Shown: positions 3,944-16,562 of the stretch, in pieces
How positions within the stretch are numbered: the first letter of the stretch is position 1
How the letters are laid out: every line of letters starts with the position of its first letter
Origin: a virus
Virus record (IMG/VR): IMGVR_UViG_3300035670_001297
Location: 1-22,941 of that record
Length of the DNA stretch: 22,941 nt
Reading direction: 5' to 3' (one strand)
The notes under the pieces: generated by a model
Told to the model about the DNA's origin: nothing
Seen by the model: only the letters and a program-made list of their open reading frames with translations
Databases searched by the model: none
Made by a program: the position numbers and the translations under genes

Positions 3944-4292
3944 GCACGGCGGCGGCATCCCCGATGTGTTCCTGACCCTCGAAGGGATGCCCCTCTGGAT
4001 CGAATTGAAGATAGGCAAGGGTGGCAGTGTTGTACTTTCGCCACACCAAGTTGCGTGGCATACAGCCTACAATGCGCACGGTGGCCTGAGTTTTTTCTTG
4101 GTATCAGACCCCCGGTCCAAGAACCTAGGTCTTATCAATGGGTTACGCGCGGTCGAGTTGCACCGTGGAACTTGGGCTCCGCTTGCGTGTGGCATTTATG
4201 CCACAATGGCCGAGGTCTGGGTTGCAATTATGCAACAGTCCGTCGACCACTACAAGAGCCTTGCGGCCTTGCGTCCTCGTGCCCTGACATAG
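3861..4292 (+). CDS. VRR-NUC-type PD-(D/E)XK nuclease
   Basis: The 143-aa product carries the ordered active-site set of the VRR-NUC family: E26 in 'RIENKHGGGIPDV', the G-x-PD turn with D35, E48-x-K50 in 'LWIELKIG', and Q63 in 'SPHQVAWH'. Such phage proteins are Mg-dependent endonucleases, often proposed to resolve branched DNA before packaging. Its location after terS fits that idea. It overlaps terS by 83 bases. The last residues (SLAALRPRALT) are encoded by the first copy of a 27-bp GC-rich repeat, so the original stop was probably lost and the C-terminus extended by repeat insertion. Confidence 0.8.
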   Translation: MAGPEANLWQRFKANQPPKTFLTRIENKHGGGIPDVFLTLEGMPLWIELKIGKGGSVVLSPHQVAWHTAYNAHGGLSFFLVSDPRSKNLGLINGLRAVELHRGTWAPLACGIYATMAEVWVAIMQQSVDHYKSLAALRPRALT

Positions 4293-4352
4293 GGCCGAGC
4301 CTTGCGGCCTTGCGTCCTCGTGCCCAGCCTTGCGGCCTTGCGTCCTCGTGCC
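4257..4352. repeat. Three copies of a 27-bp GC-rich repeat
   Basis: A 27-bp unit beginning AGCCTTGCGGCCTTGCG and ending TCCTCGTGCC occurs at 4257-4283, 4298-4324 and 4326-4352. The first copy is inside the 3' end of the nuclease gene. The core CCTTGCGGCCTTGCG also appears twice at 5232-5297, on the other side of the leftward gene at 4450-5157. The 157-base gap 4293-4449 otherwise holds a CCGTGG/CCACGG hairpin at 4351-4370 and the terminator below. Confidence 0.75.
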
Positions 4353-4378
4353 GTGGACCGGGGACCACGGGCGCAGGG

Positions 4379-5157: not shown

Positions 5158-5231
5158 TGCCGATCCTCTTCTTAGTTGATGTCCCTGCATAGCATGGCCA
5201 CAAGTAAAGCACAAGCGGAAAACAACCCATG

Positions 5232-5297
5232 CCTTGCGGCCTTGCGGCCGCCCGGCCCCTTGCGCCAAGGCCGAAGGCCTTGCGGCCTTGCGGCCGC
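5232..5297. repeat. Two 20-bp GC-rich repeats in a 296-base gap
   Basis: A 20-bp sequence made of CCTTGCGG, CCTTGCGG and CCGC occurs at 5232-5251 and 5278-5297. It shares the CCTTGCGGCCTTGCG core with the 27-bp units at 4257-4352. The gap 5158-5453 also contains small self-complementary blocks, such as AAGGCCGAAGGCCTT near 5267-5281 and related GCGAGC-rich dyads at 5320-5400. I see no gene in it; the ORFs crossing it are repeat translations. Confidence 0.7.
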
Positions 5298-5422
5298 GCG
5301 CGCCCCTTTACGAGGAAGAGTGCGAGCGGAGCGAGCTCCGAGTCCACCGACCCAAGGCCGAAGGCCGTGGGTCATATCGCGTGCGAGCAAAGCGAGCGCC
5401 GTTTCAATGGGCTTGGCTGGTT

Positions 5423-5958: not shown

Positions 5959-5976
5959 GTGTCTCTCCTTGGGTGA

Positions 5977-6007
5977 GGTGGGGCGCCATTGCTGACGCCC
6001 CGGTTGA
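5977..6007 (-). repeat. 31-bp intergenic hairpin unit, copy 1
   Basis: This unit is identical over 31 bp to 6319-6349. Each holds a 6-bp stem (GGGGCG/CGCCCC) with a ten-base loop. It lies between the 95-aa and 71-aa genes, so the mRNA of the leftward operon would carry the hairpin just before the ribosome site. It could be a processing or stability element. Confidence 0.65.
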
Positions 6008-6295
6008 TTACCACGGCAGTTCGTCGTCGAGGACGTTCGGCTGGATCCTCTTTAGCCGACGGATCCAACTGTCGAAGTGCGAGTATTTCTCGACGAGCTC
6101 CGGGCTCTTGCCGTGCGTCGCCTCGTATGCGCGCAGGAAGATCGATGCATCGCAGTCTTCCTCGAGGTAGACGACGCTGCCTTGCTGGTAGCTGTAGCCC
6201 GAGAAGTCGCCGGGCATGAGACCGACCTTCTGCAACTCGGTGAACGAAACCTCGAGCCAAGCGTGGCCGGGATCGGTGTGGAACGTGAACGCCAT
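6008..6295 (-). CDS. Conserved phage protein, 95 aa
   Basis: I start at MAFTFHTDPGHAWLEVSFTE (ATG 6295-6293), with AAGGAG about eight to nine bases upstream. The longer frame reads through the hairpin repeat. The opening 'FHTDPGHAWLEV' and the later 'GYSYQQGSVVYLEEDCDASI' are familiar from hypothetical proteins in many phage and plasmid genomes. It appears to be a compact alpha/beta domain ending in a tryptophan-rich tail ('FDSWIRRLKRIQPNVLDDEL'). Function unknown. Copies of the 31-bp hairpin flank it on both sides. Confidence 0.78.
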   Translation of the reverse strand: MAFTFHTDPGHAWLEVSFTELQKVGLMPGDFSGYSYQQGSVVYLEEDCDASIFLRAYEATHGKSPELVEKYSHFDSWIRRLKRIQPNVLDDELPW

Positions 6296-6318
6296 GTCAG
6301 TTACTCCTTGCTGGGTGT

Positions 6319-6349
6319 GGTGGGGCGCCATTGCTGACGCCCCGGTTGA
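6319..6349 (-). repeat. 31-bp intergenic hairpin unit, copy 2
   Basis: This is the second exact copy of the unit at 5977-6007, lying between the 135-aa and 95-aa genes. Similar sequence continues past the repeat to the ribosome site (TGGGT, then AAGGAG), so the whole intergenic segment looks duplicated. Confidence 0.65.
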
Positions 6350-6350
6350 G

Positions 6351-6758
6351 TTACTTGTGATGCGTGAGCGCGTTGGTGGCCAGCTTCTGCATCAAGGCTG
6401 CGAGCGGGTTGACGAAGTCCGCATCGATCTCAAGATCCTCGGCCTTCGACTTGAGATCCTCGAGCGAGTTCACGAACTCCTTGATCTGAGCCTCTCGCAC
6501 GGTCGGCATCTCGCCGATGCGCTTCATCGCCTCGCGGAAGAAGTCAGCCGGGTCGGCGCTCCAGTCGACGTGCGAGTCTCTCACGAACTCGTATTCCGTG
6601 CTCGCAGCTTCCGTGAGGCGGTAGGCATACTCGAGCCGCGTCTGCGTGTAGGACTCACTATCTCGCACAACCAAGTCCGCGTTCGGCTGGTTGTACCCTT
6701 TCGCAGTGAGCGCCGCGACGATGGCATCGAGCTGGTTCCGAATCTCTTGAACGTCCAT
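6351..6758 (-). CDS. Unknown helical protein, 135 aa, first gene of second leftward operon
   Basis: I start at MDVQEIRNQLDAIVAALTAK (ATG 6758-6756), preceded by ACGGAGACAGCT. A longer form from a GTG at 6791 is possible. The product is helical and acidic, with 'SLEDLKSKAEDLEIDADFVN' near the C-terminus suggesting a coiled coil. It is first in the group of five leftward genes and next to the large divergent gap, so its promoter must lie in 6759-7035. No family recognised. Confidence 0.72.
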   Translation of the reverse strand: MDVQEIRNQLDAIVAALTAKGYNQPNADLVVRDSESYTQTRLEYAYRLTEAASTEYEFVRDSHVDWSADPADFFREAMKRIGEMPTVREAQIKEFVNSLEDLKSKAEDLEIDADFVNPLAALMQKLATNALTHHK

Positions 6759-6876
6759 AGCTGTCTCCGTGGGTTGAGTTACTTTCTTCACGCGCGCAAC
6801 GGCTCCACCGCCTACCGCGCGAGGAGGGGCGGAGCGGCAAACCCGCTCGCAGTCAACGCCCCGAAGCCCGGAGGGT

Positions 6877-7032
6877 CAAAGTTTTTCCAGAGCGGTTGGG
6901 ACGCCAGCGCTGTAATAATTGGTGATCGAAGCTCGGTGGCTGAACGCAACGCCGAGACGCCCGACCTTCGATCAGGAATTGTTACAGCGCGGGCTAAGAG
7001 AGCCAAGCAGCAGTCGCTCTGGAAAAAGTTTG
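6877..7032. repeat. Nested long inverted repeat, possible cruciform or RNA structure
   Basis: Outer arms of 18 bp (6877-6894 and 7015-7032) match with one mismatch. Inner arms of 25 bp (6907-6931 and 6966-6990) match at 22 positions, one more being a G-T wobble. Inside lies a perfect 5-bp stem, CTCGG (6932-6936) with CCGAG (6952-6956). A side hairpin GGCT/AGCC sits at 6992-7004. Together these can fold as a branched structure in DNA or RNA. The element lies between divergent transcription units, so it is not an ordinary terminator. An origin, operator cluster or attachment site are open possibilities. Confidence 0.65.
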
Positions 7033-7037
7033 AGGGC

Positions 7038-7080
7038 TTGACGGAGAGTCGGGTTTGATCGCTATAATGACGCGATCAAG
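7038..7080 (+). promoter_or_regulatory. Sigma-70-like promoter with -10 inside a palindromic operator
   Basis: TTGACG (7038-7043) and a perfect TATAAT (7063-7068) are separated by 19 bases, longer than ideal. The -10 lies in the loop of a perfect dyad: TTGATCGC (7055-7062) and GCGATCAA (7072-7079). A repressor bound to this dyad would cover the -10 and start site. Transcription would begin near 7075 and run into the structured region. Confidence 0.55.
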
Positions 7081-7443
7081 CCGGTCGGCGCGTGGAGGCG
7101 CTGTGTGTGTGTAAGGTCTCAGCGGTGTGCAACGGGAACAGCAACGGTGCATCAAGAGCTGAGGTCCGATGCAACCTAGACTTGCGTCAGGGACACTCAC
7201 CCGTAAGGGCCGAGACCGAAGGGCTCGGTTCATGAGTGGCCCGCCCGGACGCCCAGAAATCCTAGGGCATGACCCCTAAAATATCTGCGAGCGCTGGCCC
7301 ATCCATGCAGCCAGCAGCGCACCTGACCACGGGCCACGGTCTGAGCAGCTCGATGCCCGGCCCGCTGACCGCGCGCCTCGGGGTTACTGGAACGGATCCG
7401 GGGCATCAATTGCACACCACCGGGGAGGGGGACCCCCCTTTTT
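7075..7443 (+). ncRNA. Candidate structured non-coding RNA, about 370 nt, unknown class
   Basis: The stretch starts at a promoter and ends at a terminator-like hairpin, and has no supported gene. Helices that can be read directly: GAGGCGC (7095-7101) with GCGCCTC (7373-7379); CTCAGC (7118-7123) with GCTGAG (7158-7163); GGTGTGCAA (7124-7132) with TTGCACACC (7410-7418), which would make a pseudoknot with the previous helix; GATGCAA (7168-7174) with TTGCGTC (7182-7188). There is also a three-way junction, where the stem 7190-7199/7233-7242 encloses CCC-GTAA-GGG (GNRA-type loop) and CCGAG/CTCGG. I cannot match it to tmRNA, 6S, RNase P or a group I intron. It could be a regulatory RNA or the leader of the gapR-like gene. 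Confidence 0.5.
7426..7443 (+). terminator. Candidate Rho-independent terminator
   Basis: A 5-bp stem AGGGG/CCCCT with a GACC loop is followed by TTTT. The stem is short but nearly all G-C. It would end the transcript from the promoter at 7038-7080 before the gapR-like gene. Confidence 0.45.
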
Positions 7444-7580
7444 CCGGGCGGGTTGTTCTGCGTGCGACCTTTATTGTTAGGTCGGCAAAAAATTTCGGGT
7501 GTAATTTCATTTGACTTGTTGGTAACCCCCAAGTACCAAGGTCCGAGGATCAAGCAACGACGGCAACGGTCCACGAACCA

Positions 7581-7620
7581 CCCACGTTTGACCCACGACT
7601 TTCCCACGTTTGACCCACGA
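7581..7620 (+). repeat. Two 18-bp direct repeats upstream of the gapR-like gene
   Basis: CCCACGTTTGACCCACGA occurs at 7581-7598 and 7603-7620, a 22-bp period of two helical turns. Each repeat contains CCCACG and CCCACGA half-sites. They end 19 bases before the ATG of the gapR-like gene, so they probably form an operator for it, possibly autoregulatory. The stretch 7444-7580 holds a CGACCT/AGGTCG hairpin (7464-7483) and nothing else I can name. Confidence 0.55.
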
Positions 7621-7638
7621 GCTGAGGAGCGAGCAGAG

Positions 7639-7929
7639 ATGGCAGTGATACCGATGAAGATGGACCCTGATTTTGCGGAGATGGAGAGCAAGGCGCTTTC
7701 GACGATTGAGGCGGATTTGCGGTTGATGGTTGCGGAGATAGAGGCTGGTGAGGCTGCGAAGGCGGATGCGGCACGGGATGTGAAGGATTCGTATTTGGTT
7801 GCGAAGTCGAAGGGGTTTAATGTGAAGGCGCTGCGTCGGTTGATTGCGTTACGGAGGAAGGATGCTGCTGCGGAGGCGGAGATTGAGGACGCGGTAAGGC
7901 TTTACAAGCGCTGCATGAGTATGCTATAG
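7639..7929 (+). CDS. gapR: GapR-like (DUF2312) DNA-binding protein
   Basis: The 96-aa product ends with 'ARDVKDSYLVAKSKGFNVKALRRLIALRRKD' (about residues 45-75) and 'RLYKRCMSML'. This matches the pattern of Caulobacter GapR, where a long helix is followed by 'I.EVYAEAKGNGFDVK.L....R.RK.D'. GapR is a nucleoid protein that clamps overtwisted DNA and helps topoisomerases. I chose the ATG at 7639, with GAGGAG nine bases upstream. A shorter start at 7654 is possible. The gene stands alone between a direct-repeat operator and a strong terminator. A phage copy could manage supercoiling during replication or compete with the host protein. This gene is the best clue to an alphaproteobacterial host. 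Confidence 0.82.
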   Translation: MAVIPMKMDPDFAEMESKALSTIEADLRLMVAEIEAGEAAKADAARDVKDSYLVAKSKGFNVKALRRLIALRRKDAAAEAEIEDAVRLYKRCMSML

Positions 7930-12900: not shown

Positions 12901-14166
12901 ACGCCCTCAACTGGCGCGGGCACGCCCTCAACTGGCGCGACCGGCGCGGGCACGCCTTCTACCGGTACCGAAACCCTCTTCGCGGAACCCGATCTTGGGC
13001 TCGGAGATCCGCTGTCCGACCCTGCGTTCACATGGGCTGCGGATCTTGTGAGCGAGGTCGATCAGCTTGGCACGGTCAGCGACATCACGCTGCAGCGGCT
13101 GAATGCTGACCCTGCGATCTCCAACACGGCGGTGGCGTCTGAGCTCAACGCCTTGGGCATCCCAGCGACGGTTGATCCCACGACGGGGCGCGTTGTTCTA
13201 GGCACGGGAACCGCGCAGCCTACTGCGGATACCACGGGAATTGGCACTCTTCCGGGTGCGTCTGTGGTTACTGGCGCTCCTCTCCCTGCGGAAGTGGTGA
13301 TGGACTCGGTCGGCAACACGGTGGTTCTGACCAACACCACCACGGGCGAGTCACGCACGGTGCAGAAGGACGCGTCGGTTGCCCAAGAGGTGGAGGCGCT
13401 GGCCAACAACCAGCCATCTCCGAGCGGGGCGACGTCCACGTTCACCACTACGGGCACAGGTACTGGAACGGATACGACCGGTACAACCACAACTGGAACA
13501 ACTACAGGCACTACAACCACGGGCACCACGACCGGTACGACCGGCACAACTACCACGGGAACCACCGGCACAACCACTGGACCCACGACGGACGACACGA
13601 CCGGACCGGGGGACGAGTCCGTTACGGGTCCCGCTACGGAGCCCGGCGCTGGGACTCCTACCACTCCGCCTCCTCCGGGCGACAGCGGTGGTACGCCCCC
13701 CGGCGCTCCTCCGGAAGAACCTGCTGGTACGCCTCCCGGAACGCCGTCTGGAACTCCTCCGGAAGAACCACCCGAGGAGACGCCGGAGACGCCGGAGACG
13801 CCCGAGGTTCCCGACATCACCGGAGAGGCCGTCCCTGATTACACCGGAACGCAGGCCCCGTCCCCCATGACGGGCCGCATGCGCCCGGTCATAGGTCCGA
13901 GATACGTGCCGGTACCGACGGGGGGCTACTACCAGTACTCCCCGGAGCTGGTGGGCGGCGTTTCGACGTTCGAGCTGCTGTATCCCGGAGGCTACGGGGC
14001 CCCGGTTCCGAGCGCGCCGAACTACGCGGCTGCGCCTCCGCCTGACCGTGTTGTTTTTGCAACACCTCCGGTTCCGGAGCAGAACTACTATGTCCAGCAG
14101 GGCATAGGTTCTGTGACCCCGGAGCAGGTTCTCGAGCTACAACGGCGTCTTGGCTACATTAGATGA
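9919..14166 (+). CDS. Large repeat-containing virion protein, 1415 aa
   Basis: AGGAGA precedes the ATG closely. Residues 25-180 are Pro/Thr/Ala-rich and probably disordered. Residues 231-365 hold five near-identical 27-residue units (RQQEEQARAAEALRQQQ...), certainly a long helix or coiled coil. Residues about 440-860 look folded and include Ala/Gly-rich hydrophobic stretches (QVAEVVPSLLGPLAVSRYST; VGAPIAALAGGAFNKVA). Residues about 1140-1320 are Thr/Gly- then Pro/Glu-rich, and the protein ends 'VTPEQVLELQRRLGYIR'. Its size, its place between the cell-wall enzyme and the terminase, and the mix of coil and Ala/Gly-rich segments suggest an internal core or DNA-ejection protein. I recognise no family, so this is inference. 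Its stop overlaps the terL start as ATGA. Confidence 0.75.
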   Translation: MLRLLGFGADRRVFGGGSEGSGASSDAPAPAPPPAPAPQAMTSQVSSGRGTIQATAPPTTTTINTPAGPKTVSTAPAPPSTTVQVKTTAELRAEKEAKDAAAAKAAQDRVNEILAQQNDRDDRAPAGTYTGTGTTAKPPTPSTTTGSGTGTTTSSVPKTSTDRAVAEMIAGRGTTPVVGNFDDEYARLNLLGGIPDYAIKEYTTTGRVIPGYETLVSNYNADRQRESDLQRQQEEQARAAEALRQQQAEAARQAELKRQQEEQARAAEALRQQQAEAARQAELKRQQEEQARAAEALRQQQLEAARQAELRRQQEEQARAAEALRQQQLEAARQAELRRQQEEQARAAEALRQQQVAAAREAAERAAQEAAQLTREPTPYTSPSGIDYSVTATGRPYGEPGGMDGSLGLYVSGAEAALGPDTGILYGDLPDYYGSYGADLGVTPGYSFNPATGRVEPNPVVDLGEISIPPEEQDPFDFSNVELPRDWVESVEQNLVRNPETGRLEPSESPTMESLYDTLYENLVGVGEADTFGERLGQGINDLGTQFVSGVATTAANTVSTLGNIANYLSDGGTKSIEMDTDPVTGETFFREVTGPVTGNPLQSVYDELMQFSQDFKAENLSETAKAALRGTVISGDIFNPSAGISLGDDPSMFGLILQVAEVVPSLLGPLAVSRYSTIAGMGTAGVIAAGDLEQDARTYMRELASSGQMQNLPAYQELIDQGFSPAEAAQALENNASQWAATVGAPIAALAGGAFNKVASTTFTRGLLSKGLVDGTLAKGANIAGKAAAGSAIESVTEVLENTSAKLATNLGVGTDRNITENSFREAVLGAMGGLTASVGGSGAVPVDPGTGAPPAPYTALSSINNPLLDQADKSRVQTLLDTSGPAASAGTGLTFNQDTGQYEEVTRGLDLIGDYVRQGDGTFDLLFPDTETARNVADDLGISTAGLSGDQIAKSIADKFGAAGGNIGPGEALLGTTEPVTGEAGAGTTGAGTPSTGAGTPSTGATGAGTPSTGTETLFAEPDLGLGDPLSDPAFTWAADLVSEVDQLGTVSDITLQRLNADPAISNTAVASELNALGIPATVDPTTGRVVLGTGTAQPTADTTGIGTLPGASVVTGAPLPAEVVMDSVGNTVVLTNTTTGESRTVQKDASVAQEVEALANNQPSPSGATSTFTTTGTGTGTDTTGTTTTGTTTGTTTTGTTTGTTGTTTTGTTGTTTGPTTDDTTGPGDESVTGPATEPGAGTPTTPPPPGDSGGTPPGAPPEEPAGTPPGTPSGTPPEEPPEETPETPETPEVPDITGEAVPDYTGTQAPSPMTGRMRPVIGPRYVPVPTGGYYQYSPELVGGVSTFELLYPGGYGAPVPSAPNYAAAPPPDRVVFATPPVPEQNYYVQQGIGSVTPEQVLELQRRLGYIR
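10609..11010 (+). repeat. 81-bp tandem repeat, five copies, in frame
   Basis: Units start at 10609, 10690, 10771, 10852 and 10933. The first four are full and nearly identical at the DNA level; the fifth diverges after about 50 bases. They encode the 27-residue coiled-coil unit of the 1415-aa protein. High DNA identity suggests recent expansion and possible copy-number change. Confidence 0.9.
13430..13610 (+). repeat. Thr-Gly coding low-complexity tract
   Basis: The tract alternates ACC/ACG/ACA/ACT and GGC/GGA/GGT codons, so the peptide repeats TTGT-like units while synonymous codons vary. A smaller repeat coding for GAGTPST lies at about 12893-12965. Varied codons indicate selection for the peptide, not simple slippage. 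Confidence 0.75.
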
Positions 14167-16562
14167 ACATTCACGCGCTGCCTGATGACGTGCTCCGTGA
14201 GCTGTTGATGCTCACGGAGGCGAAGTATCGCCTTGAGATCCGGGAGAAGGCGAGCGAGAACTTCATGCCGTTCGTGCACCACGTGTACGACAACTTCATC
14301 GAGGGCCAGCACCATCGGATCATTGCCGAGAAGCTGGAGCGTGTGGCTCGAGGGGAGTTGAAGCGGCTGATCATCAACATGCCGCCTCGACACTCGAAGT
14401 CGGAGTTTGCCAGCTACCTGATGCCTGCGTGGTTTCTGGGGCGGAACCCGAAGCTGAAGATCATTCAGGCCACGCACAACACCGAGCTGGCGGTTCGGTT
14501 TGGCCGCAAGGTCCGAGATCTGCTGGACGATCCCCGGTATCGGGAGATCTTCCCGAACACGACGCTGAAGGAAGACAACAAGGGCGCTGGCAAGTGGGGC
14601 ACTGACAAGGGCGGCGAGTACTTCGCTGCGGGTGTTGGCGCTGCGGTGACGGGCCGTGGCGCGGACCTGTTCATCATCGATGACCCGCACTCGGAGCAGG
14701 ACGCGTTGAGCGACACTGCGTTCGACCATGCGTACGAATGGTACACGTCCGGTCCTCGGCAGCGTCTGCAGCCGGGCGGCGCGATCATTCTGGTCATGAC
14801 GCGCTGGGGCAAGAAGGATCTGACGGGTCGGCTGATCGAGGCGCAGGCTTCGGACGTGATGGCGGATCAGTGGGAGGTCGTGGAGTTCCCTGCGATCATG
14901 CCGAGCGGCAAGCCGCTGTGGCCTGAGTTCTGGGAGAAGGACGAGCTGCTGCGGATCAAGGCGGCTCTCCCGGTCGCCAAGTGGAGCGCGCAGTGGCAGC
15001 AGCTGCCGACGGGCAGCGAGTCTGCGATCATCAAGCGCGAGTGGTGGCAGGACTGGGAGAAGGAAGACATCCCGAAGGTGGACTACATCCTTCAGGCGTA
15101 TGACACGGCGTACTCGAAGAAGGAGACGGCGGACTTCTCGGCAATCACGACTTGGGGGATCTTCAAGCCGAAGGAGGGAGGTCCGGATCACATCATCCTG
15201 CTGGACGCGCAGCGCGGGCGATGGAGTTTTCCGGAGCTGAAGGAGCTGGCGTATGAGGAGTTCAAGTACTGGGAGCCGGACATGGTCTTGGTCGAGGCCA
15301 AGGCGTCCGGTCGTCCGCTGATCGACGAGCTCCGATTGCGTGGCATCCCGGCGCTGGGGTTTTCACCGGGCAAGCGCGCGGGTGGGGGCGGCGTGGACAA
15401 GACGACGCGGATGCACATGGTTGCGCCGATGTTCGAGGCGGGGCTGGTTTGGGCGCCGAAGAGCAAGAAGTTCTCGGACGAGGTCATCGAAGAGGTTGCA
15501 TCCTTTCCATATGGAGACCATGACGACTTCTGCTTGGCTGAGGGCACACAGGTCCTTATGGCAGACGGATCTCTTGTCTCCGTAGAACAGGTTCGGGCAG
15601 GTGATCTGGTTCACACGCCCGCCGGGCCTAAGCCGGTTCTTGCTGCTCAGCTCACCGGGGTAAAACCGGTGTTGAAGCTGACGGCAGGAGACAACGTCTT
15701 ACTGGGTACAGCAAACCATCGCGTGGCCACCACTTCCGGGTGGAAACGCCTTGACACAATAAGCGTGTCTGATACAGTGAAGCTTGCACCACCTAAGGAG
15801 CTGCTTCTATGCCGTTTGAAACAGATGCAAGTGTGCTGTCCGAACTTGTCGTCTTTGGCGGCAGAAGCTATCGCCGCTACCCGAGTTCTCGCCACCGGCA
15901 TCTTCGAGAATACTTCTCCCGTTCTGGTGGGCGACGGTTTCTCCACCAAGATGTCTGGGAGCGCTACAATGGTCCCATTCCAGAAGGACATCACATCCAC
16001 CACGTGGACGGTAACAGCCGGAACAACGCCCCGGAAAACCTCGTTTGTATCCCGGCTGATGACCACTGGAAGGAGCATCAGGAAGACCGGCAAGAGCACG
16101 GCTTTTCTGAAAGGAACCTCGAGCATCTGGCACGTTGCCGCGAGAAAGCTGCCGACTGGCATAGAAGCGAGGAAGGAAGGCTTTGGCACCGAGACGTTTC
16201 CGCTGGATTTCTTGAGGCTGCCCGTGCCCGCCTTCGGGAAAAACGCGCTGTTCAACGCGCTGACCCCCAGCTTGCGACGTGCGAAGAATGCGGCTGCTCG
16301 TTTCCTTCGCCAACAGGTCGTGCAAAGCTCTGTTCTGCGACGTGCGCCAGTCGAAAGAGTCGTCGAAACCGGCGAGAGCGCAAGGGTGTATGACCTGAAG
16401 GTTGCGGACGCTCACTGTTTTTATGCCAATGGCTTTCTGGTCCACAACTGTGATAGCATGACGCTAGCTTTGATGCGGTTTCGTCAGGGCGGCTTTATCG
16501 CGCTTGCCGGGGAAGAAGAGCCGGAGGGCAAAGAGTTCCGGCGCAAGAAGGAGTACTACTGA
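14163..16562 (+). CDS. terL: Terminase large subunit interrupted by an intein
   Basis: The 799-aa ORF contains a 493-aa terminase plus a 306-aa intein (residues 457-762). The ATPase part has the Walker A-like 'PPRHSKS' (74-80) and Walker B 'LFIIDDPH' (169-176). The RNase H-like nuclease has D314 in 'AYDTAY', E378 in 'VLVEAK' and the third motif 'DHDDF' (D452, D454, D455). The intein splits this third motif: after splicing it would read DHDDF-CDSMTLAL. Unspliced protein should therefore lack nuclease activity and possibly a proper fold. The enzyme translocates and cuts phage DNA at the portal. It starts in an ATGA overlap with the 1415-aa gene and ends in a TGATG overlap with the portal gene. 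Confidence 0.93.
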   Translation: MNIHALPDDVLRELLMLTEAKYRLEIREKASENFMPFVHHVYDNFIEGQHHRIIAEKLERVARGELKRLIINMPPRHSKSEFASYLMPAWFLGRNPKLKIIQATHNTELAVRFGRKVRDLLDDPRYREIFPNTTLKEDNKGAGKWGTDKGGEYFAAGVGAAVTGRGADLFIIDDPHSEQDALSDTAFDHAYEWYTSGPRQRLQPGGAIILVMTRWGKKDLTGRLIEAQASDVMADQWEVVEFPAIMPSGKPLWPEFWEKDELLRIKAALPVAKWSAQWQQLPTGSESAIIKREWWQDWEKEDIPKVDYILQAYDTAYSKKETADFSAITTWGIFKPKEGGPDHIILLDAQRGRWSFPELKELAYEEFKYWEPDMVLVEAKASGRPLIDELRLRGIPALGFSPGKRAGGGGVDKTTRMHMVAPMFEAGLVWAPKSKKFSDEVIEEVASFPYGDHDDFCLAEGTQVLMADGSLVSVEQVRAGDLVHTPAGPKPVLAAQLTGVKPVLKLTAGDNVLLGTANHRVATTSGWKRLDTISVSDTVKLAPPKELLLCRLKQMQVCCPNLSSLAAEAIAATRVLATGIFENTSPVLVGDGFSTKMSGSATMVPFQKDITSTTWTVTAGTTPRKTSFVSRLMTTGRSIRKTGKSTAFLKGTSSIWHVAARKLPTGIEARKEGFGTETFPLDFLRLPVPAFGKNALFNALTPSLRRAKNAAARFLRQQVVQSSVLRRAPVERVVETGESARVYDLKVADAHCFYANGFLVHNCDSMTLALMRFRQGGFIALAGEEEPEGKEFRRKKEYY
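15794..15800 (+). promoter_or_regulatory. Shine-Dalgarno sequence for the nested HNH gene
   Basis: TAAGGAG lies eight bases before the ATG at 15809. In the terL frame the same bases encode P-K-E of the intein. It supports independent translation of the HNH gene from the terL message. Confidence 0.75.
15809..16393 (+). CDS. HNH homing endonuclease nested out of frame inside the intein
   Basis: The 194-aa product is a full HNH endonuclease read in the -1 frame relative to terL. It opens with 'VVFGGRSYRRYPSSRHRHLR' and has the HNH core 'GPIPEGHHIHHVDGNSRNN' (residues 55-73), then 'NLVCIPADDHWKEH' (78-90) with H86 and H90. It ends with a second metal site, C158-x2-C161 and C175-x3-C179, and a basic tail. 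TAAGGAG stands eight bases before its ATG. Its stop lies inside the VYD codons of intein block F, so the gene exactly fills the space where an in-frame endonuclease would be. It should cut intein-less terL alleles and so spread the intein. No frameshift is needed to make either product. Confidence 0.9.
   Translation: MPFETDASVLSELVVFGGRSYRRYPSSRHRHLREYFSRSGGRRFLHQDVWERYNGPIPEGHHIHHVDGNSRNNAPENLVCIPADDHWKEHQEDRQEHGFSERNLEHLARCREKAADWHRSEEGRLWHRDVSAGFLEAARARLREKRAVQRADPQLATCEECGCSFPSPTGRAKLCSATCASRKSRRNRRERKGV

Follow-up and report, generated by a model that had tools for sequence, protein, structure and literature searches.

The intergenic gap of this virus record contains a folded element of about 80 nucleotides that is real, covarying, and widespread. 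This element belongs to a large family that Rfam lacks. Instead of the 370-base RNA gene proposed for the same place, it is probably a signal in folded DNA. The window analyzed here is the entire 22.9-kb virus record (22,941 nucleotides), and the coordinates of the features discussed are collected in Table 1.

Table 1. Positions of the folded element, of neighboring features in the window, and of example cassettes in other phages
Feature	Position	Strand	Remarks
Gap	6792-7638		between minus-strand ORF 6351-6791 and plus-strand ORF 7639-7929
Promoter-like TTGACG-N19-TATAAT	7038-7068	+	TATAAT at 7063-7068; lost in L003
7-bp helix	7095-7101/7373-7379
TGTGTGTG...TAAG landmark	7102-7116	+	5' mark of non-coding region
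9-bp helix	7124-7132/7410-7418
Three-way-junction single-strand motif, type B	7176-7255	+	models R2 and R1
P1 5' side, GCGTC	7184-7188	+	pairs with 7248-7252
P2 5' side, GGG-A-CACTCA	7190-7199	+	pairs with 7233-7242, A.G mismatch
Hairpin a, CCC-GTAA-GGG	7200-7209	+	loop GNA or GNNA in nearly the whole family
Hairpin b, CCGAG-A-CC-GAA-GG-G-CTCGG	7210-7228	+	pair swaps among 133 distinct copies
P2 3' side, TGAGTG-G-CCC	7233-7242	+	double changes in L003 and in alignment A4
P1 3' side, GACGC	7248-7252	+	double change in L003; P1 counts across the family
GGGGTTACT-N-CCCCCC element	7380-7438 (to ~7442)	+	near-constant spacing; earlier read as a terminator
G/C hairpin + T5	7430-7443
Cassette examples	L092 4368-4751; L091 8259-8852; L113 4757-5431; L147 2081-2519; L288 5563-6066; others

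The fold comprises a closing helix (P1), a stem with an A.G mismatch (P2), and two hairpins (a and b). The only close relative that spans the gap, IMGVR_UViG_3300025687_002869 (L003, identical to L004), is 90% identical to the window, and its differences preserve pairing in both helices: P2 changes from CACTCA/TGAGTG to GCCTCA/TGAGGC, and P1 from GCGTC/GACGC to GCGAT/ATCGC. Pair swaps also occur in hairpin b, with C-G replaced by G-C in 5 and G-C by A-T in 34 of 133 distinct copies. The stem of hairpin a is invariant, in part owing to the search pattern.

Homologues were collected by several routes. A TerL search led to phages that have parts of the gap in common, and a pattern drawn from their common hairpin matched 84 viral stretches; a plasmid-type variant of the pattern matched 29 viral stretches, two of them in loci found earlier. 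Bacterial genomes contributed 109 stretches with the motif, mainly from Pseudomonas and Alphaproteobacteria, so that the homologues overall comprise more than 100 phage contigs, these bacterial stretches, 4 Microviridae, and thousands of plasmids. The consensus reads GCGNN/N'N'CGC for P1, GGG-A-UN/N'A-G-CCC for P2, CCC-GN(N)A-GGG for hairpin a, and CCGAG...CUCGG for hairpin b. In type A members P2 is followed by GAAG/ACGA; in type B members, found in viral contigs only, P2 continues as a Watson-Crick extension ending in ACUCA/UGAGU.

The search pattern partly fixed hairpins a and b and left P1 and P2 free, and the two helices carry the covariation. Against shuffles that ignore the relatedness of the sequences, the N pair of P2 forms in 101 of 105 members (shuffled mean 52, maximum 68), the second P2 pair in 104 of 105 (71.5, maximum 83), and the P1 complement in 67 of 99 (13, maximum 26). 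In alignment A3, 98.5% of cells are paired, with a one-sided change in 1 of 544 cells and 53 double changes versus 15.2 (sd 2.6) in shuffles of this kind; alignment A4 has 18 double changes versus 5.6. Pairing falls to 23-56% when the A3 partners are slid by one to three columns. Independently, the type B model R2, built without the window and without L003, matches window positions 7176-7245 at E=3.9e-19, its sole match up to E=1, and the type A model R1 matches the window at E=5e-10. Searches of Rfam 15 with covariance models, at both gathering and lax thresholds, found no family above the cut-off in the window and no match in the homologous loci. A literature search by motif strings returned unrelated papers only, and the family may bear another name elsewhere.

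The earlier note had envisaged a discrete RNA of about 370 nucleotides, with its own promoter and terminator, that matched no known RNA class. All the strings it named are present where it placed them, and a structured element outside Rfam is indeed there, but at about 80 rather than about 370 nucleotides. The larger RNA is not supported because its promoter, U-tract, and 9-bp long-range helix are not conserved. In L003, TTGACG becomes TTCACG and TATAAT becomes TACGCT, which abolishes the promoter. Of 31 phage regions arranged in this way, the window alone has a promoter matching at least 10 of 12 positions ahead of the fold; one of the other phages (L089) has TTTACG/TATACT at the same place. 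A scan for consensus promoters and terminators listed neither signal of the proposed RNA, the promoter having a spacer of 19 where the scan covered 16-18. The hairpin and T5 tract exist, but the T-run after CCCCCC reads TTATTTG or TATATA in most relatives, and GGGGTTACT...CCCCCC was rejected as a terminator on this ground.

The long-range pairing of the proposed RNA fared no better. The 9-bp helix, said to form a pseudoknot, is present unchanged in the window and L003 and absent from all other regions of the same layout, and it was therefore rejected; the 7-bp helix also shows no change between the window and L003. Chance pairing is the likeliest origin of both. Covariation over homologues thus bears out the three-way junction with its GTAA loop (7184-7252) and gives the 9-bp helix no support. 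The span 7075-7443 (369 nt), taken whole, shows no special stability relative to shuffles (MFE z=-0.5; 30 of 100 shuffles equally good). Of the hallmarks of an independent RNA gene, conserved covarying structure was found for 7184-7252 only, and neither a promoter nor an intrinsic terminator proved to be conserved.

Several lines of evidence bear on whether the fold acts as DNA or as RNA. The first comes from plasmids. A consensus query matched 4349 plasmid records, mainly from Escherichia and Klebsiella and mainly conjugative. The F plasmid has two copies (58091-58172 and 63479-63560), within a 559-nt repeat, and their settings are upstream of ssbF and between a Hok-family gene and the leading genes that come next. 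These settings match the locations of Frpo2 and Frpo1 on F given in PMC9849209 (there citing Masai and Arai 1997). In seven plasmids with an identifiable leading region, all 17 copies are opposite to the leading genes and hence on the T-strand, which was assigned on F from the placement of oriT and on the other plasmids from the order of their genes. Copies in pMRAD02 and in plasmids of S. maltophilia and X. campestris are likewise opposite in strand to the adjoining small-gene operon. On plasmids, then, the fold has a strand preference and occupies the strand that passes between cells as single-stranded DNA. Identity with the RyfA/PAIR small RNA was rejected because the Escherichia coli F block is mostly plasmid-borne (13452 plasmid versus 157 chromosomal places) and has no Rfam match.

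The second line comes from phages that package single-stranded DNA. Four Microviridae (KT264808, MH572438, and the contigs L136 and L307, the latter two assigned to this family from their ORFs) have the fold between genes and on the viral strand. Together, the transferred-strand copies on plasmids and the viral-strand copies in Microviridae favor folded single-stranded DNA over an RNA gene, although the mRNA of Microviridae has the polarity of the viral strand as well. The loops and pairs point the same way. Loop a is C-GNA-G in most copies and C-GNNA-G in most others, and most of the tetraloops are not GNRA; the final A of this loop was fixed by the search pattern, whereas the first G was free. 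C-GNA-G and C-GNNA-G are hyperstable DNA loops. This argument draws on general knowledge of DNA hairpins, and the loops of hairpin b are more mixed. G.T pairs are nearly absent among the covarying pairs.

On these observations, the fold may be a folded single-stranded-DNA site, most likely of the single-strand initiation (ssi) type, a reading that stands about an even chance of being correct. The fold would act in DNA while its own strand is single-stranded. Such states would include the T-strand after conjugation, the viral strand of a microvirus and, in a tailed phage, probably the lagging-strand template during replication. In an ssi-like role, priming or primosome proteins, or else RNA polymerase, would recognize the hairpin array and start the complementary strand there. 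The window copy would lie between genes, in the non-coding DNA that precedes the structural genes; we infer both its single-strandedness and its priming.

Comparison with known sites shows both likenesses and differences. As in the Frpo sites, the same fold occurs in the F repeat blocks at Frpo positions and on the transferred strand, a leading-region comparison that has no application to the phage copy. Unlike in Frpo, the AT-rich hairpin of the F repeat, the presumed promoter, is a separate part more than 200 nt from the fold, which counts against an ssi reading, and the window has no AT-rich hairpin beside its fold. The -35 and -10 that Frpo rebuilds in its folded strand were likewise not located within the 80-nt fold. 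The phiX174 primosome assembly site and other ssi sites are alike in being folded single strands in the intergenic DNA of single-stranded DNA phages. A further pointer to single-stranded DNA is the 13-mer AAGCG(A/G)AGCGCG, which occurs once in phiX174, on the plus strand in the F-G gap, where its primosome assembly site lies. Among 114 distinct bacterial copies of the motif, 42 have the same 13-mer on the 5' side of the fold at a distance of 35-52 nt, and with one mismatch allowed it also stands ahead of all three pWW0 copies. Membership in the primosome assembly site family is not claimed, because R1 finds no match in phiX174, G4, or If1 and the window lacks the 13-mer.

Alternatively, a structured non-coding RNA could have the fold as its core and work in trans or as a leader, which appears unlikely on balance. 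Such an RNA might be modular in phages of the same type as the window and extend between the TGTGTGTG and GGGGTTACT...CCCCC landmarks. About 30 such phages have the fold as one module of a non-coding region in which varied hairpin modules lie between landmarks, and the conservation of landmarks at both ends favors an RNA, as do the strong covariation and the window's own GTAA loop, which is of the GNRA type. The TGTGTGTG landmark is present in about half of the related phages, against a background of ~0.009 per kb. The GGGGTTACT element is conserved also in phages without the fold. Against an RNA stand the unconserved promoter and U-tract, the scarcity of G.T pairs and GNRA loops, the mixed orientation of copies relative to neighboring genes, and the plasmid copies, which are antisense and lie between leading-region genes. 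Some tailed-phage copies lie 17-76 nt ahead of an ORF start, as a leader would, and 19 of 50 paired copies have an ORF start with a Shine-Dalgarno-like box at this distance downstream; a 5'-UTR leader was rejected, given that the remaining paired copies scatter or lack an ORF start and the plasmid copies are antisense.

A different reading is suggested by paired copies, whose occurrence at both ends of single tailed-phage genes is not explained by an ssi role alone. On this reading, which is rather improbable, small mobile gene cassettes would move via single-stranded DNA with the fold as an end or a recombination site, and the window copy would be a remnant or boundary. Outside the group of the window, the copies in tailed phages include 28 opposite-strand neighbors within 1 kb, of which 26 are divergent; both exceptions are in one multi-copy contig (L305). 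In most divergent pairs a single small ORF spans both copies: the antisense copy at its start encodes the N-terminal tail, the sense copy at its end encodes the C-terminal tail, and the frames used differ. The cores of these ORFs are unrelated (HNH, dCMP deaminase, DUF1643, Lar, and unknown). Proteins from these motif-bounded single genes have similar tails despite their unrelated functions.

The motif-bounded genes look like mobile single-gene cassettes. Four relatives of Sphingopyxis phage VSN-002 lack the cassette and its motif upstream of a prtN-like gene, weakly indicating mobility, as these relatives are only ~50% identical in telomere resolvase. The motif is also patchy in Pseudomonas, being present in 20 of 59 genomes, often in two to five copies each. 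Against the cassette-end reading, no recombinase is linked to the fold and the F-type, microvirus, and window copies are unpaired. Integron attC sites and IS200/IS605-type ends also bound cassettes or elements with folded single-stranded DNA. They differ from the present motif, which has divergent copies at both ends of one gene and is linked to no integrase or transposase. HEARO/omega-RNA is similarly structured and often without a neighboring gene; it was rejected, as RF02033 matched 0 of 20 motif-carrying genomes. The sequences upstream of four iscB genes were unrelated to the motif by eye, and a simple motif scan found no IscB-like ORF. A search for RRXRR in 299 genomes of one phylum gave no match anywhere, and the controls were equally silent, which leaves this search uninformative.

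That the gap is an unstructured spacer whose helices are chance pairings in GC-rich sequence is very improbable: the ordinary MFE of the whole region and the unsupported 9-bp helix agree with it, but the covariation counts refute it for 7184-7252 and the independently built model matches there.

The single-stranded-DNA site, RNA, and cassette-end hypotheses may overlap. One combined proposal, possible though doubtful, is that the fold is an unrecognized single-stranded-DNA module shared by tailed phages, microviruses, conjugative plasmids, and genomic islands, which marks the strand that becomes single-stranded in transfer and also bounds mobile single-gene cassettes. The motif is common to the F Frpo1 and Frpo2 blocks, the leading regions of Pseudomonas plasmids, and single-stranded DNA phages, and it provides a searchable signature for single-strand-active sites beyond enterobacterial plasmids. 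It thereby opens to testing, across many hosts, how complementary-strand synthesis or early expression begins on incoming DNA. If the cassette layout of the tailed phages were confirmed, it would reveal a new means of swapping small accessory genes, such as Lar-type and deaminase genes.

The surroundings of the fold have further features. The plus-strand ORF that follows the gap encodes a GapR-like DNA-binding domain. No tRNA or tmRNA was found in the window, GC skew indicates no clear origin at the gap, and a blastn search of the gap against a phage database gave a 30-nt chance match only. The most stable structure in the gap is a 158-bp imperfect palindrome at 6876-7033, which on either strand is much more stable than its shuffles (z=-6.4 and -7.0) and is nearly identical in L003; it could represent an origin or the remnant of a mobile element. 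Downstream of GGGGTTACT-N-CCCCC, a TATAATGTT/TTTCATTGGACTTGT-like stretch at 7470-7525 is conserved in many related phages, including those without the fold; the two together are perhaps the promoter and operator of the structural genes. Two copies of CCCACGTTTGACCCACGA lie in 7580-7620, upstream of the GapR-like gene, and are altered in L003.

Elsewhere in the window, a TGGGGCGCCATTGCTGACGCCCCGGTTGA repeat at 5974-6008 and 6318-6350 precedes two adjacent minus-strand ORFs, and short intergenic repeats of the CTTGCGGCCTTGCG type occur at 4257-4360 and 5229-5400, as they do in L003. The terminase large subunit ORF (14163-16562) shows an apparent intein interruption (CLAEGTQVLMADGS ... YANGFLVHN), and the same region contains an HNH-like frame (15809-16393) in a different reading frame.
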